From Halostella limicola (GTDB lineage Archaea > Halobacteriota > Halobacteria > Halobacteriales > Natronoarchaeaceae), in NCBI RefSeq assembly GCF_003675875.1, contig NZ_RCDI01000001.1:186001-250000 (forward strand): 64,000 nucleotides of DNA, written 5' to 3'. Position numbers and translations under genes: made by a program. Shown here in pieces: positions 55,865 to 64,000 of the stretch. A model generated the notes under the pieces. It was not told where the DNA came from and ran no database searches. It worked only from the letters and a program-made list of their open reading frames with translations. The stretch's first letter is position 1; each line of letters begins with the position of its first letter.

Positions 55865-55885
55865 TACTCGGTGGTTGCACCGTGT

Positions 55886-55895
55886 GTTTTTAACC
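55886..55895 (-). promoter_or_regulatory. TATA box of the thiamine-type ABC operon
   Basis: Minus-strand GGTTAAAAAC, 22-31 bases before the ATG at 55864. No TPP riboswitch motif (CTGAGA with ACCTGA) is present, so regulation, if any, is at the promoter. Confidence 0.6.
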
Positions 55896-55975
55896 CCGCC
55901 GATCCGCCGCGACCGTCTCGGGGGCGGCTTCGGTTCGGCGCAAAACTCAAATGGATGATCGTTGGGGATTCGCGT

Positions 55976-57625
55976 ATGTCTCTCGACTACGAGCGCGAGT
56001 GCGAAACCTTCGAGTGGGACGTCCCCGCGGACTACGCCCTCCCGGCCGTTCTGGAGCGACACGCCGATTCCTTCGGCGACCGCCTCGCGGTCAGGTACCG
56101 CGACGCCGACGGCGGCGAGGCGGAGCGGACGTTCGGCGAGGTCCGCGACGACGCGAACCGCTTCGCGGCGGCGCTCGCCGACCTGGGCGTGGGCGAGGGC
56201 GACCGCGTGATGCACCTGTTCCCGCGCCACCCCGACGCGTTCGCCGTGCAGGTGGGCGCGCTCGCCCGCGGGGCGCTCCTCGTTCCCTGCTCGTCCATGC
56301 TCAAGCCCAACGACGTCGCCTTCCGGGCGAACGACTGCGAGGCCGACACCGTCGTCGTCCACGCGGAACTGACGGACATGGTCGAACCGGTGCTCGACGA
56401 GACGCCGCTGGAGACCGTGATCGTGCTGGACGCAGGGGCAGACGGGACCGGCGGCGTCGCCGACCGCGAGGGCTGGCACGCCTACGCTGACCTCGTCGAG
56501 GGCCGTGACCCGGACCACGAGGGACCGGACCTCGGCGCGTCGGACCCGATGTCGATCAACTACACCAGCGGCACGACGGGCAAGCCGAAGCCCGTCCTCC
56601 ACCGCCACCGCTGGCTCTACTGCTTCGAGCGCATCAACGGACCGTACTGGTGGGGCGTCGACCGCGACACGGACTTCTCGGACGAACTCCTCTGGGCGAC
56701 GACCGGCACGGGGTGGGCCAAGTGGTTCTGGAGCCCCGTCGGGGTCGCGCTGACGACCGGCGCGCCACAGTTCCTCTACGAGGGGGAGTTCGACCCGGAG
56801 ACGTTCCTCGACCTCATGGCCGAGGAGGCGGTCACCCGCCTCTGCGCCGTGCCGACCCAGTACCGGATGTTCACCCAGGCCGACCTCGCCGACTACGACC
56901 TCGCCCTGACGGAGGCGGTGTCGGCCGGCGAACCCCTCAACCGCGAGCCGATCCGGGCGTTCGAGGACGCCGTCGGCGTCACGCCGCGGGACGGCTACGG
57001 CCAGACCGAGACCGTCGCGCTGGTGACGAACTACCCCGGCATCGACGTGAAGCCCGGGAGCATGGGCAAGCCCGCCCCCGGCGTCGGGACGACGATCCTC
57101 GACGTGGACGAGGAGACGGAGGTCGAACCGGGCGAGACCGGCGAGATCGCCGTCCCGATCGACAGCCCCGCCATCTTCGACGGGTACTATGAACAACCGG
57201 AGCGCGACCGCGAGACCTTCCGCGGCGACTACTACCGCACCGGCGACCTCGCTCGCGCGGACGAGGACGGCTACTTCTTCTTCGAGGGGCGGGCCGACGA
57301 CATCATCATCTCGTCGGGCTACCGCATCGGCCCCTTCGAGGTCGAGGACGCGCTCGTCGACCACGAGGCCGTCGCGGAGGCCGCGGCGGTCGCCAGCCCC
57401 CACGACGAGCGGGGCAACGTCGTGAAGGCCTACGTCGTCCTCGCGGACGGTCACGAGGGGAGCGACGACCTGGTCGAGGAGCTTCAGAGCTACATGAAAG
57501 CGGAGACGGCACCGTACAAGTACCCCCGCCGGATCGAGTTCGTCGACGAGCTCCCGAAGACCTCCAGCGGGAAGATCCGCCGGATCGAGCTCCGCGAGGC
57601 CGAACAGCGTCAGTTCGGGGAGTAG
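55976..57625 (+). CDS. Acyl-CoA synthetase (AMP-forming)
   Basis: A 549 aa ANL-superfamily enzyme that activates an organic acid to its CoA thioester through an acyl-adenylate. The AMP-binding P-loop is YTSGTTGKPKPVLH (about 197-210), the core motif GYGQTE lies near 341, and YYRTGDLARADEDG with RADDIIISSGYRIGPFEVE holds A8. The late catalytic lysine is in KTSSGKIRR. Sequence style fits the medium-chain / acetyl-type group. Divergent from the thiamine-type ABC operon. Start chosen by an ATG at good distance from CAAAACTCAAAT. Confidence 0.93.
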   Translation: MSLDYERECETFEWDVPADYALPAVLERHADSFGDRLAVRYRDADGGEAERTFGEVRDDANRFAAALADLGVGEGDRVMHLFPRHPDAFAVQVGALARGALLVPCSSMLKPNDVAFRANDCEADTVVVHAELTDMVEPVLDETPLETVIVLDAGADGTGGVADREGWHAYADLVEGRDPDHEGPDLGASDPMSINYTSGTTGKPKPVLHRHRWLYCFERINGPYWWGVDRDTDFSDELLWATTGTGWAKWFWSPVGVALTTGAPQFLYEGEFDPETFLDLMAEEAVTRLCAVPTQYRMFTQADLADYDLALTEAVSAGEPLNREPIRAFEDAVGVTPRDGYGQTETVALVTNYPGIDVKPGSMGKPAPGVGTTILDVDEETEVEPGETGEIAVPIDSPAIFDGYYEQPERDRETFRGDYYRTGDLARADEDGYFFFEGRADDIIISSGYRIGPFEVEDALVDHEAVAEAAAVASPHDERGNVVKAYVVLADGHEGSDDLVEELQSYMKAETAPYKYPRRIEFVDELPKTSSGKIRRIELREAEQRQFGE

Positions 57626-58971: not shown

Positions 58972-59913
58972 ATGGCGTCGACGCTCGACCCGCAGGTCGA
59001 GGAGTACCTGCACGACCTCTCCGATCGGGGATTACCGCCGCTGTACCGCCTGTCGCTCGAAGAGGCCCGGGAGACGTACCGGGACCTCTGCGTCCCCGAT
59101 GGACCGCCGGAGCCCGTCGCCGACGCGTCCGAGCGGTCGATCCCCGGCGGGGACGGCGACGTACGGATCCGGAGTTACGAACCGACCGGTGACGGACCGC
59201 ATCCAGCGGTCGCCTTTTTCCACGGCGGCGGCTGGATACTCGGCGGACTCGAGACCCACGACGCGCTCTGTCGGGCGCTCGCGAACGAGAGCGGCTGCGT
59301 CGTGACGGCCGTCGACTACCGGCTCGCGCCCGAACACCCGTTCCCGGCGGGGCTGGAGGACTGTTACGCCGCCGTCCGGTGGCTCGACGACAACGCCGAG
59401 ACGGTCGGGGCCGACGCCGACGGGCTCGCGGTCTGCGGCGACAGCGCCGGGGCGACGCTCGCGGCCGGGGTCTCCCTGCTCGCGCGCGACCGCGGCGGTC
59501 CCGACATCGACTACCAGGCCCTCGCCTATCCGGTCACGGACCACGCGTTCGGCACGGACTCGTACACGGAGAACGCGCAGGGGTACTTCCTCACCCGCGA
59601 GGACATGAAGCGGTTCTGGAACGGCTACCTCCGGTCCGAACACGACGGGAGCCACCCGTACGCCTCACCGCTCCGAGCGGAGAGCCTGCGCGGCCTGCCG
59701 CCGTCGCTCGTCGCCACCTGCGGCTTCGACCCGCTCCGCGACGAGGGCCGCGCCTTCGCGGACCGGCTGGAAGCGGCGAGCGTGCCGACCCGTCAGCGCC
59801 ACTACGACGACATGATCCACGGGTTCCTGACGATGCTCGCCGACCCGGAACTCGACCGAGCGCGGGAGGCCATCGGCGAGGTGGGTGACGAACTGGCGCG
59901 TGCGCTCGACTGA
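58972..59913 (+). CDS. Alpha/beta hydrolase of the hormone-sensitive lipase family
   Basis: A 313 aa esterase. The oxyanion-hole motif is FFHGGGWILGG (about 83), the nucleophile elbow is VCGDSAGATLAAG (Ser about 158), the acid is in CGFDPLRDEG (about 254) and the histidine in YDDMIHGFLTM (about 284). This is the HSL/family IV bacterial-type esterase pattern for short acyl esters. Monocistronic, before the E2 gene. Confidence 0.93.
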   Translation: MASTLDPQVEEYLHDLSDRGLPPLYRLSLEEARETYRDLCVPDGPPEPVADASERSIPGGDGDVRIRSYEPTGDGPHPAVAFFHGGGWILGGLETHDALCRALANESGCVVTAVDYRLAPEHPFPAGLEDCYAAVRWLDDNAETVGADADGLAVCGDSAGATLAAGVSLLARDRGGPDIDYQALAYPVTDHAFGTDSYTENAQGYFLTREDMKRFWNGYLRSEHDGSHPYASPLRAESLRGLPPSLVATCGFDPLRDEGRAFADRLEAASVPTRQRHYDDMIHGFLTMLADPELDRAREAIGEVGDELARALD

Positions 59914-59994: not shown

Positions 59995-61455
59995 ATGGGA
60001 TACATAGTCCGAATGCCGAAACTGGGGCTCGAGATGGAACAGGGGACGGTGCTCGAGTGGTCGGTCGGAACCGGCGACGAGATAGCGGAGGGGGACCAGG
60101 TGGCCGAGGTGGAGTCCGAGAAGAGCATCGGCGAGGTCGACGCCCGAGAGGACGGCGTGCTCCGCCGCGTCTACGCCGAGGAGGGCGAGAGCGTTCCGCC
60201 CGGGACCCCAATCGGCATCGTCGCGGCCGCCGACGCCGAGATCTCGGACCTCGAAGCGGAGGCGGAAGCCGACCTCCGCGAAGACGCCCCCGAACTGGCG
60301 CCAGGGGGCGACGCGGCCGAAGCGACCGGCGCGGCGGCTGACCCGACGCCCGAAGCCGGCGCGTCGGCACCGGCCTCGACGGGCGACGCGGGGGGGAGCG
60401 CAGCGGCCGGCGGTGCGTCGTCGGCGTCCGCGTCAGGCGGTTCCGGGAGCGCACCCGACGTGCGGGCCTCGCCGCGGGCGGAGAAGCGAGCCGAGGAGCT
60501 GGGCGTCGACCTGACGGCGGTCGACGGGACGGGACCGCAGGGCGCGATCACCGCGGGCGACGTGGAGGCGGCCGCCGAAGCGAGCACGGACGCCGACGAG
60601 CAAACGAGCGCCGGCGAGGCGGTGAAAGCCTCGCCGCGGGCGGAGAAGCGCGCGGAAGAACTCGGCGTCGACCTGACGACCGTGGACGGGACGGGGTTCG
60701 AGGGCGCCGTCACCGAGGACGACGTCGAGGCCGCCGCGGACGCCGCCGAATCGGCGGACGCCGGCGATTCGGCTGAGCCGACACCGCCGTCCGCGGTCGA
60801 CGAGGCGGCGGGGGTCCGCCGGATCGACGAAGCGCCCGAAGCGCACCGGTACCGACGCGCCACGTCCGTCGCCGATCCGGCGGTCGGCGAGGCGCTCTTC
60901 GAGACGATGGACGCGGTCCGGGCGGCGTTCGAGGAGCGCGTCACGATGACCGACGTGCTGCTCGCCGTCGCCTCGGCGACACTCAAAGACCATCCGGCGC
61001 TGAACGGGACGTACGCGGAGTCGACGCATCAGGTCCGCGAGACCCAGAACGTCGCGCTCGCCGTCGCCGTCGACGGAGACGGACTGACGACCGGCGTGAT
61101 CGACGACGTCGACGAGCGGTCGCTGACCGAGATCGTCGAGGCTCGAACCGACATCGGAGGCGGCGGGGGCGAGACGCAAGGTGCCACGTTCACCCTCGCG
61201 AACGCCGCTGGCGTCGAGGCCGACGGTCGCCTGATCAACCCGCCCTGCGTCGCGTCCCTCGAAGTCGACCCGAGCGGAGAGCGGGCGGTCCCGGACGGCG
61301 ACGGCGTCGACCTCCGCCCGCTCGTGACCGCCGGCCTCACCTACGACTCCCGGGCGGTGTCCTCCGCCGAGGCGGCGGCGTTCCTGGACGGGTTCTTCGA
61401 GCGCGCCGAGGCGGCGTCCGAGCTGGTCCTCTCGACGTATCGCGGCCACGAGTAA
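59995..61455 (+). CDS. 2-oxoacid dehydrogenase E2-like protein with two subunit-binding domains and lost catalytic His
   Basis: A 486 aa dihydrolipoamide acyltransferase-like protein. Lipoyl domain 1-80 (MPKLGLEMEQGTVLEW; lipoyl Lys in EVESEKSIGEV). A long Ala/Gly-rich linker carries two copies of the E3/E1-binding domain: ASPRAEKRAEELGVDLTAVD (about 156-190) and ASPRAEKRAEELGVDLTTVD (about 212-247). A C-terminal acyltransferase-fold domain (about 265-480) lacks the DHRxxDG motif: the aligned stretch is TYDSRAVSSAEAAAFL, with Ser in place of both catalytic His and Asp. Fold expected, transferase activity doubtful. Start ATG at 59995 is where the lipoyl fold begins. Confidence 0.88.
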   Translation: MGYIVRMPKLGLEMEQGTVLEWSVGTGDEIAEGDQVAEVESEKSIGEVDAREDGVLRRVYAEEGESVPPGTPIGIVAAADAEISDLEAEAEADLREDAPELAPGGDAAEATGAAADPTPEAGASAPASTGDAGGSAAAGGASSASASGGSGSAPDVRASPRAEKRAEELGVDLTAVDGTGPQGAITAGDVEAAAEASTDADEQTSAGEAVKASPRAEKRAEELGVDLTTVDGTGFEGAVTEDDVEAAADAAESADAGDSAEPTPPSAVDEAAGVRRIDEAPEAHRYRRATSVADPAVGEALFETMDAVRAAFEERVTMTDVLLAVASATLKDHPALNGTYAESTHQVRETQNVALAVAVDGDGLTTGVIDDVDERSLTEIVEARTDIGGGGGETQGATFTLANAAGVEADGRLINPPCVASLEVDPSGERAVPDGDGVDLRPLVTAGLTYDSRAVSSAEAAAFLDGFFERAEAASELVLSTYRGHE

Positions 61456-61502: not shown

Positions 61503-62525
61503 TCAGCGCCGGTCCTCGATCGCCGCCTCGTCGCGGTAGAGGACGCCCGCCTCGGCGGCGGCTTCGAGCGCGGCGTCGACGTCCACGAGCCGCGGCCCGT
61601 CGGCCACCGGCGCGATCTCGACGGTCGCGTCGACGACCTCGATCTCGCGCTCTCCGTCGGCGCCGACGACGACGTCGGACACCTGGAAGGTCGCGGGCTC
61701 GCCCCAGCCGAGCGGTTCGTGCGACGCGACGCCGACCGTGGTCGTCATCCCGGGAGCGACGATCGCCCGGACGCGCCGCGCCGCGTCGTCGGGATCGCCG
61801 AGTCGGAGCGCGGCGCCGCCGGGCGCGTCCGGCGCGACCGGGTCGATACAGCCGGCCACGCAGCTGAGGCCGATCTCGGACGGGTGGGCTCGCGAGACGA
61901 CGCCGCCGAGCAGTTCGGCGGGGTCGATCACCGCGCGCGTCCCGACGAACGACCGGTCGGTGATCTCGACCGCCGCGAGGCCGGTGAGTCGCTTCTCGCC
62001 GTTGACGCCGTCGGCCCGCGCCTCCACCGCGCCGTGCCGGTAAGTCGCCGCGCCGGCGTCGACGACGCCGGTCGCCACGACCGCCGCAGCGGCGCCGGCG
62101 ACGGTGCCGTCGACGGGCGTCGGCACGACGTTGTTCGTCCCCGTCGAGACGCTGACCATCGGCACATCCCCGAGTTCGAGCGCGGCGTCGCGGCTCGTCC
62201 CGTCCCCGCCGAGCACCACGACGACGTCCGCCCGATCGCGGAAGTGCGCGGCCGCGCGCCGCGTGTCCGCCGCCGACTCCTCGACCGGCATCTCCACCTG
62301 CTCGACCGATAGCCCTGCCGGCGCCTCCGCGACGGCGTGGTCGGCGATCCCGGTCCGGTCCGGCATCAGCTCGACGTCGGGCGGGTCGTCGACGAACGTC
62401 AGGCCGTCGAGCACGCACTCGGCGACCCGGCGCTTCGCGTGGTTGTCGACGACGCTCGCGCCGCCCGTGAGGCGGCGGATGTCGCGACCGGCCGCGGGGT
62501 TGACGACGAGTCCGACGCGGGCCAC
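61503..62525 (-). CDS. acoX: ATP-NAD kinase-like protein AcoX
   Basis: A 340 aa protein of the NAD kinase/diacylglycerol kinase superfamily, AcoX branch. N-terminal VGLVVNPAAGRDIRRL and VVVVLGGDGTSRDAALELGD (the GGDGT motif, about 103) are clear. The C-terminal half has the AcoX-type TGLAAVEITDRSFVGTRAVI. AcoX genes are found in acetoin catabolic loci, where the precise role is unknown. Downstream of the E1 genes by only 5 bases, so the three form one operon. Confidence 0.85.
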   Translation of the reverse strand: MARVGLVVNPAAGRDIRRLTGGASVVDNHAKRRVAECVLDGLTFVDDPPDVELMPDRTGIADHAVAEAPAGLSVEQVEMPVEESAADTRRAAAHFRDRADVVVVLGGDGTSRDAALELGDVPMVSVSTGTNNVVPTPVDGTVAGAAAAVVATGVVDAGAATYRHGAVEARADGVNGEKRLTGLAAVEITDRSFVGTRAVIDPAELLGGVVSRAHPSEIGLSCVAGCIDPVAPDAPGGAALRLGDPDDAARRVRAIVAPGMTTTVGVASHEPLGWGEPATFQVSDVVVGADGEREIEVVDATVEIAPVADGPRLVDVDAALEAAAEAGVLYRDEAAIEDRR

Positions 62526-62530
62526 GGGGA

Positions 62531-63532
62531 TCAGGCGATCCGCTCGATGGCGTCCCGGACCCCCTCGCCGTCGGGCAGGACTTCCTGTTCCAGCGGCGGA
62601 CTGAACGGCATGTGTGTGTCGGGCGTGCCGACGCGCTGGATGGGGGCGTCGAGGCTGTAGAACCCGTTCTCCATCACGCGCGTCGCGACCTCGGCGTGGA
62701 TGCCGTACGAGAGCGGGCTCTCGTCGGCCACCACGAGGCGGCCGGTCTTCCGGACGCTCTCGACGATCGTCTCGGTGTCTAGCGGGTACAGCGACCGCGG
62801 GTCGATCACCTCGACGCTCGTCTCGGCGTCGAGGCGCTCGGCCACGTCCAGCGACTCGCCGACGAGGCGCTGGGTCGCCACGACGGTCACGTCCTCGCCC
62901 TCGCGCTCCACGTTGGCCTCGCCGATGGGCACCGTGAAGTCCTCGTCGGTCGGCACCTCCCCTTCCTGCTCGTAGATCATCTTGTTCTCGAAGACGAACA
63001 CGGGGTCGTCGGAGCGGACGGCGGCCTTCGTCAGCCCCTTCGCGCTCGCGGGCGTCCCCGGCGCGACGGCCTTGAGGCCGGGGAAGTGCGCGATCCAGGC
63101 GTGGACGGTGCCGGAGTGCTGGCTGGCCGCGCCCATGCCGCCGCCCTCCGTCGTGCGGACGGTGACGGGCATCTCGGTCTTCCCGCCGAACATGTAGCGC
63201 ATCTTCGCCATCTGGTTCATCGTCTGCTCCATCGAGACGCCCATGAAGTCAGAGAACATGATCTCGACGACCGGCCGCGTCCCGGTCGCCGCCGCACCGG
63301 TCGCCGCGCCGACGAAACCGGCCTCGGCGATCGGCGTGTCGCGGACGCGCTCCTCGCCGAACTCCTCGTAGAGACCGCCAGTCACCTCGAGGACGCCACC
63401 GAACAGGCCGACGTCCTCGCCCATGACGTACACGTCCTCGTCGCGCTCCATCTCCTCGCGCAGGGCCTGTCGGATCGCCTCGCGGACGGTTCTGGTCTCG
63501 GTCTGTTGCTCGAGCTCCGCCTGAGCGGTCAT
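62531..63532 (-). CDS. 2-oxoacid (acetoin/pyruvate-type) dehydrogenase E1 beta subunit
   Basis: A 333 aa transketolase-fold subunit. VREAIRQALREEMERDEDVY, VMGEDVGLFGGVLEVTGGLY, and the dimer/thiamine-binding region ATGTRPVVEIMFSDFMGVSM are conserved in PdhB/AcoB. The C-terminal transketolase domain begins about 205 (EVIDPRSLYPLDTETIVESV). It acts with the alpha subunit in a thiamine-diphosphate-dependent E1. The ATG overlaps the alpha stop (ATGA). With AcoX behind it, an acetoin-type or 2-oxoacid complex is likely. Confidence 0.93.
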   Translation of the reverse strand: MTAQAELEQQTETRTVREAIRQALREEMERDEDVYVMGEDVGLFGGVLEVTGGLYEEFGEERVRDTPIAEAGFVGAATGAAATGTRPVVEIMFSDFMGVSMEQTMNQMAKMRYMFGGKTEMPVTVRTTEGGGMGAASQHSGTVHAWIAHFPGLKAVAPGTPASAKGLTKAAVRSDDPVFVFENKMIYEQEGEVPTDEDFTVPIGEANVEREGEDVTVVATQRLVGESLDVAERLDAETSVEVIDPRSLYPLDTETIVESVRKTGRLVVADESPLSYGIHAEVATRVMENGFYSLDAPIQRVGTPDTHMPFSPPLEQEVLPDGEGVRDAIERIA

Positions 63533-64000
63533 GAGGAATCACCTCCCTTCGCGCCGCCGTCGGCGCGTGGCCTGTTCGCGAACGCTTCGATCTCCGGCAC
63601 CGGTTCGCCGAACATGTCCTCGTACGCCTCCTCCGGGGCGGGCGGTTCGGCCTCCTGCGCGTACTCGACCGCGTCGGCGATCGTCGCCTCGACCTCAGCC
63701 CGCAGGTCCTCGAACTCCTCCTCGGTGAGTTCGCCGCGGTCGATCAGCCGCCCTTTGAACGACTCGATGGCGTCCCGCTGCTTCCACCGCTCGATCTCGT
63801 CCTCGTCGCGGTACGGCTGTTCGTCGCCCTCGTAGTGGCCGCGGTACCGGTACGTCTCGGCCTCGATGAACGTCGGCCCGTCGCCGGCACGGGCTCGCTT
63901 GCGCGCCTCCTCCACCGCCTCGGCGACTGCCGTCACGTCCATCCCGTCGACCGTCACGCCGGGGATGTCGTACGCCCCCGCGGTGTCGCTGAGGTTGTCG
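63529..64000 (-). CDS. 2-oxoacid (acetoin/pyruvate-type) dehydrogenase E1 alpha subunit, 5' end outside the window
   Basis: The C-terminal 156 or so residues of a PdhA/AcoA-type E1 alpha, running off the right edge. Visible conserved parts are YDIPGVTVDGMDVTAVAEAV, GPTFIEAETYRYRGHYEGDE (the conserved YRYxGH segment) and the phosphorylation-loop-like DEDEIERWKQRD. The stop overlaps the E1 beta start by four bases, so expression is coupled. The start lies beyond base 64000. Confidence 0.92.
   Translation of the reverse strand, partial: DNLSDTAGAYDIPGVTVDGMDVTAVAEAVEEARKRARAGDGPTFIEAETYRYRGHYEGDEQPYRDEDEIERWKQRDAIESFKGRLIDRGELTEEEFEDLRAEVEATIADAVEYAQEAEPPAPEEAYEDMFGEPVPEIEAFANRPRADGGAKGGDSS

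Follow-up and report, generated by a model that had tools for sequence, protein, structure and literature searches.

In the archaeon Halostella limicola, an E2 protein of a 2-oxoacid dehydrogenase-type complex has, as read from its sequence, had its classical acyl-transfer site erased while the catalytic fold was retained, and an alpha/beta-hydrolase of the hormone-sensitive lipase (HSL) family is encoded directly beside it. We put at about 0.6 the probability that this hydrolase carries acyl groups from the lipoyl arm to CoA, with the degenerate E2 core serving as a scaffold in a complex of the acetoin dehydrogenase (aco) type. As the hydrolase accompanies every dead E2 and is sometimes fused to a lipoyl arm, it probably took over the step that the E2 lost. 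Coordinates below refer to the window, the whole stretch of 64,000 nucleotides that we analysed.

The degenerate E2 and its catalytic core

The E2 gene (59995..61455, +) is an unbroken open reading frame of 486 aa that encodes a lipoyl domain, two E3-binding domains, and a catalytically stripped 2-oxoacid_dh core. Pfam places the lipoyl domain (PF00364 Biotin_lipoyl, 3.4e-15) at aa 5-74 (60007..60216, +), with the lipoyl Lys K43 inside it (60121-60123, +), and matches the E3-binding domain (PF02817) in two stretches, copy 1 at aa 156-191 (60460..60567, +) and copy 2 at about aa 210-247 (60622..60735, +), the boundaries of the latter being set by alignment. At the protein level the copies differ by a single A/T over 'ASPRAEKRAEELGVDLT[A/T]VDGTG', though about one DNA position in six differs between them, so that a fresh duplication does not explain the likeness. 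The degenerate core (aa 305-477; 60907..61425, +) was delimited by PF00198 (2-oxoacid_dh) and by alignment with canonical sister E2s; because the PF00198 match (78 bits) begins only at model position 45 and ends at 230 of 232, the catalytic fold is present without its start. An AlphaFold model of the core (four sequences), used for fold recognition only because of its low confidence (pLDDT 55), found E2 cores as its fold matches.

Aligned with canonical E2s, the motif DHRxxDG reads DSRAVSS in the window E2 (aa 451-457; 61345..61365, +), with Ser452 in place of the catalytic His, Ser456 in place of the second Asp, and D451, which precedes the catalytic His position, retained. The initial annotation had reported this motif, an intact lipoyl Lys, and two near-identical binding domains in a gene at these coordinates, and the open reading frame, Pfam, and alignment agree with it on each; to its two losses the alignment adds a third, as TFTx[ST]N reads TFTLAN (A402). 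The first helix of the catalytic fold (GMRxTIxxRL) is also gone when the core is aligned with its canonical sisters. The protein thus resembles the classical E2s of PDH, OGDH, and BCDH (CAT fold, PF00198) in its lipoyl domain and lipoyl Lys, its E3-binding domains, and a CAT fold recognized by sequence and model, and differs from them in lacking both DHxxxDG, with its catalytic His and second Asp, and TFTx[ST]N, with its hydroxyl, as well as the first helix. That classical transfer is impossible without the His and Asp, as had been claimed, is too strong a statement for these two residues alone: in E. coli E2o, Ala at His375 or Asp374 lowers activity about 54-fold each and His375Trp retains 60% of activity (PMC5986005), so that this enzyme keeps residual activity after either loss. 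It is because the His, the second Asp, the oxyanion hydroxyl, and the first helix are lost together that we predict the core to be inactive.

Orthologs of this E2 occur in Natrialba taiwanensis, N. aegyptia, one Haloarculaceae MAG, Haladaptatus halobius, Halocatena marina, Natrinema gelatinilyticum, and many other haloarchaeal genomes, where two kinds of E2, degenerate and canonical, occupy one type of cluster, mostly convergent to AcoX-E1b-E1a. In an alignment of the kind the initial annotation had suggested, the change proved common to 19 degenerate haloarchaeal orthologs and absent from 27 canonical sisters: the catalytic His is found in 0/19 versus 27/27, the second Asp in 4/19 versus 27/27, and the TFTx[ST]N hydroxyl in 1/19 versus 27/27, while the degenerate proteins share common deletions and lack the GMRxTIxxRL helix that 27/27 canonical sisters retain. 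Asp stands at the D451 position in 19/19 degenerate E2s. The replacement of both residues by Ser, as first described, holds for the window E2 and not for its orthologs, in which the His position is occupied by Thr, Ala, or Pro and the position of the second Asp can be Gly or Asp. The degenerate cores form one clade (support 100/100), and since the orthologs of this clade, drawn from several haloarchaeal families, have the same losses, the loss of the motif is a family trait, and sequencing error or chance is ruled out as its cause. A genuine His/Asp pair at another place in the domain had been named beforehand as evidence against an altered active site; the ortholog alignment contains no such pair, the only near-case being the plasmid E2 of Natrinema gelatinilyticum (L108), which reads DTHAIDG, with the His one place late and the second Asp kept, and is unique among the degenerate relatives.

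Lipoyl and binding domains are equally conserved in the two groups, and the lipoyl Lys is present in 18/19 degenerate E2s, the exception being a disrupted gene. The degenerate E2 of genome G158 (L175, C1:1810075-1811561) is split over two frames, by a frameshift or an assembly error, and is the only disrupted copy seen. Two or three E3-binding domains are also found in active E2s of the same family (L078, L083, L086, L089), and one degenerate E2 (L107) apparently has a single one. Paired binding domains are therefore not the special feature of this protein, and the earlier proposal of a scaffold that recruits double the usual partners through its duplicated domain loses its specificity.

The gene cluster and its hydrolase

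Convergent to the E2 gene lie genes for an AcoX-like protein (NAD_kinase N-terminal family; 61503..62525, -), an E1-beta subunit identified by profile match (62531..63532, -), and an E1-alpha subunit (63529..64000, -) that runs beyond the window (L041:14530-15576) and has 348 aa in all. The E1-alpha is 50% identical to that of a bacterial acetoin-type cluster versus 33% to the host's canonical E1-alpha, and the AcoX-like protein, whose gene separates those of E1-beta and E2, shares 35% identity with its counterpart in the same bacterial cluster; acoX is a typical member of acetoin dehydrogenase clusters (PMC3543383). Genes for E3, butanediol-dehydrogenase-like, and IclR proteins adjoin the cluster in several relatives, and oadhAB3 of H. 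volcanii (HVO_0669/0668), for which experimental work identified no substrate, has 54% and 47% identity to the acetoin E1 of B. subtilis (PMC8305020). Because of these identities, the typicality of acoX, the neighbouring genes, and the likeness to oadhAB3, and with Aco-type E1-alpha and E1-beta joined by AcoX in one cluster, the locus most likely encodes an aco-type complex, for which acetoin is the predicted substrate. It differs from AcoABC(X) in being archaeal and in that its E2 gene and E1 operon are convergently arranged. The genome holds one other E2 (C2:25847), intact, in a usual LipA-E1a-E1b-E2-E3 cluster. Upstream of the window cluster is a gene for an AMP-forming acyl-CoA synthetase (55871-57625, +), a position not conserved in relatives.

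The initial annotation had raised the possibility that another protein performs acyl transfer, and comparative genomics lends support to this, with the HSL-family alpha/beta-hydrolase (313 aa; 58972..59913, +) encoded 81 nt upstream of the E2 as the candidate. The protein carries HGGG, GDSAG, D253, and H283, passes the 350-bit cut-off of NF058653 (LipP1 hormone-sensitive lipase family) with 428.6 bits, and shares its triad and oxyanion Gly with every one of the 26 cluster HSL rows compared, of which four are repeat records. Cluster HSLs are members of a general esterase family with many paralogs per genome. A second HSL in the window's genome (L112, G000:C5:70740-71642), 56% identical, lies outside the dehydrogenase clusters and outside the cluster-HSL clade.

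Within the clusters, an HSL ortholog is present at 21/21 distinct degenerate loci and 0 canonical loci, and the genomes that hold some 52 active-E2 loci lack it. Of 117 haloarchaeal genomes sampled order-wide, nine have a degenerate E2, and the ortholog group, taken as matches of 368 bits or more against at most 341 for the next paralog, is found in all nine and nowhere else in the sample. When 67 E2-carrying genomes from further families were examined, 11 had the ortholog and the rest lacked it; ten of the 11 carry a degenerate E2, and in one (G119) the end of a contig holds a lipoyl-HSL fusion. In a plasmid collection, the four best HSL matches (67-71% identity, the next at 57%) all come from the four records that encode a degenerate E2. 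In a comparison of all open reading frames, the HSL alone among gene families tells degenerate from canonical loci by its presence, a distinction taken from HSL labels because single linkage had joined HSL with E2 via the fusions. The SDR, butanediol-dehydrogenase-like MDR, IclR, E3, and acyl-CoA synthetase genes were considered as replacements, and none separates the two groups.

Phylogenies link the hydrolase to the type of E2. Cluster HSLs form one clade (support 100/98) with two subclades that match those of the degenerate E2s. The E1 tree does not group the degenerate loci as a clade: a set of 29 rows forces three switches of E2 type (AU p 3e-142) and a set of 51 rows forces four, fewer independent switches than a formal sign test requires. 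At every switch the HSL goes with the E2 type, and E2 type and HSL therefore move jointly relative to E1.

The HSL is a separate gene with no visible tether to the complex in most genomes. Fusions of an HSL to a lipoyl domain were found in three related genomes: G054 (lipoyl, E3_binding, and Abhydrolase_3 by Pfam), where the HSL lies C-terminal behind an E2-type lipoyl arm; G110 (lipoyl and Abhydrolase_3, with the middle masked), where the HSL is likewise the C-terminal part of a protein that starts with such an arm; and G119. The hydrolase thus occupies the usual CAT position, and an HSL fused to its own lipoyl arm would physically stand in the place of the catalytic core. A similar layout is seen in the bacterial AcoC of the AcoX-E1-E1-AcoC cluster, which combines a lipoyl domain with Abhydrolase_1 in place of a 2-oxoacid_dh core. 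The parallel is one of architecture and not homology, as AcoC uses Abhydrolase_1 and the fusions Abhydrolase_3/HSL, and the window differs further in having separate genes for lipoyl-E2 and hydrolase and in keeping a dead CAT. Against NF011457 (AcoC), the window E2 reaches 78 bits where the cut-off is 307, through its lipoyl and binding domain only, and the G054 fusion reaches 80 bits. We found no paper in the open-access literature that links AcoC to the alpha/beta-hydrolase fold.

Acyl transfer and competing explanations

In the mechanism that we propose, E1 would cleave what is probably acetoin or a similar alpha-hydroxyketone, and the acyl group would be loaded on the lipoyl arm of an E2 whose core, devoid of an active site, acts as a scaffold. 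Ser158 of the HSL would then take the acyl group off the lipoyl arm and hand it to CoA, the main variant being hydrolysis instead, and the E3 of the complex may come partly from elsewhere. Such a transfer is chemically plausible because the closest PDB match of the window HSL (1.9e-90), Est8, was the earliest bacterial HSL for which acyl transfer in water was demonstrated, with the related PestE and EST2 also tested (PMC7383625, PMC8402108), and because the alpha/beta-hydrolase Eat1 accepts thiols as acyl acceptors (PMC7658179). The Est8, PestE, and EST2 esterases are the nearest solved structures to the HSL, and promiscuous acyl transfer in water is reported for several; unlike the proposed enzyme, they are not known to use lipoyl thioesters or to work alongside a dehydrogenase complex. 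A hydrophobicity score that predicts acyltransferase activity (PMC7383625) rests on non-polar acceptors, and acidic haloarchaeal proteins would bias it. The fuller version of this proposal falls just short of an even bet: a non-homologous replacement in which the HSL acts as a lipoyl-to-CoA acyltransferase via a covalent acyl-enzyme on a dead CAT scaffold, with bacterial AcoC having arrived independently at the same solution through another hydrolase family.

Should the HSL instead be an acyl-lipoyl thioesterase, the complex would bypass CoA and yield NADH, an aldehyde, and a free acid (acetate) that an acyl-CoA synthetase would activate later. All of the co-occurrence of HSL and E2 fits this explanation equally, HSL proteins are hydrolases by default, and the synthetase in the window could reactivate the acid; a distant one is found in L074. 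We nevertheless regard it as unlikely, as the synthetase is not conserved in the cluster, discarding a thioester is costly, and the corresponding clusters at sister loci retain an E2 that transfers to CoA.

Somewhat less probable again is a role for the HSL in supplying or clearing a metabolite, by freeing acetoin from an ester or cleaning adducts from lipoyl groups, with transfer proceeding through residual activity of the core or without an enzyme. The human alpha/beta-hydrolase ABHD11, which associates with OGDHc and has a protective effect on the lipoyl groups of that complex (PMC7426941), offers a precedent, and both the Asp retained in every aligned degenerate E2 and the tolerance of E2o for single active-site substitutions (PMC5986005) are consistent with remaining activity. 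This explanation leaves unaccounted for the restriction of the HSL to dead-E2 loci and its fusion to a lipoyl arm, and several catalytic features and a helix have been lost together.

It is improbable that the degenerate E2 plays in archaea the part of mitochondrial protein X (PDHX), inserted in the core of the canonical E2 (C2:25847) and borrowing its active sites. Human protein X has Ser in place of the catalytic His, and the window E2 resembles it in being E2-like, with lipoyl and E3-binding domains in identical order and a non-catalytic core; protein X structures are among its sequence and fold matches, and the genome does hold one other, intact E2. However, haloarchaea examined that have an active aco-type E2 also tend to have other E2s, the degenerate core is strongly diverged (31% identity to sister cores), and the link to the HSL would go unexplained. 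The window protein further differs from protein X in its two E3-binding domains, its own E1 operon, its hydrolase partner, and a cluster that contains no canonical E2.

That the core is a decaying remnant with no role is very improbable, and a decayed pseudogene domain is ruled out by purifying selection: although the degenerate core evolves under looser constraint than that of its active sisters (dN/dS 0.17-0.42 versus 0.08-0.21; identity 0.50 within the degenerate group versus 0.66 within the canonical), each of the eight pairs tested shows clear purifying selection, the full length persists across deep divergence, a group-specific C-terminus is conserved, and a single copy is disrupted.

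Wider context and other E2 architectures

E2 acyl transfer is taught as one reaction carried out by a conserved His/Asp motif. Dead E2-like cores (protein X) and E2s that join a lipoyl arm to a hydrolase (AcoC) are each already known; to our knowledge, as far as the open-access literature goes, the strict pairing of a dead E2 core with a separate or fused HSL is undescribed. If the HSL does perform the transfer, a central E2 step would be replaceable by different chemistry while the complex persists, the odd lipoyl-hydrolase layout of bacterial AcoC would be accounted for, and caution would be needed before such degenerate E2s are annotated as active acyltransferases. The proposal would also lend itself to a simple genetic and biochemical test.

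Other E2 architectures were observed among the haloarchaeal clusters. Another type of E1a/E1b cluster (L097, L098, L100, L102, L103, L105) encodes a CAT-only E2 in frames of about 180-350 aa, with DHRxVDG intact; as these frames contain no lipoyl domain, the lipoyl carrier for such clusters must be encoded elsewhere. Active E2s of the same cluster type as the window's often bear a C-terminal OsmC-like domain (L078, where it is PF02566, L079, L083, L089, L090, L095, and many of L148-L201), and of 65 E2 open reading frames whose motif is intact, 41 extend into a tail of >120 aa, mostly with OsmC-like Cys motifs. Ohr/OsmC peroxidases are connected with lipoyl proteins as reductants (cf. PMC4486171), and the tail of these active E2s may be a built-in lipoyl-dependent peroxidase.
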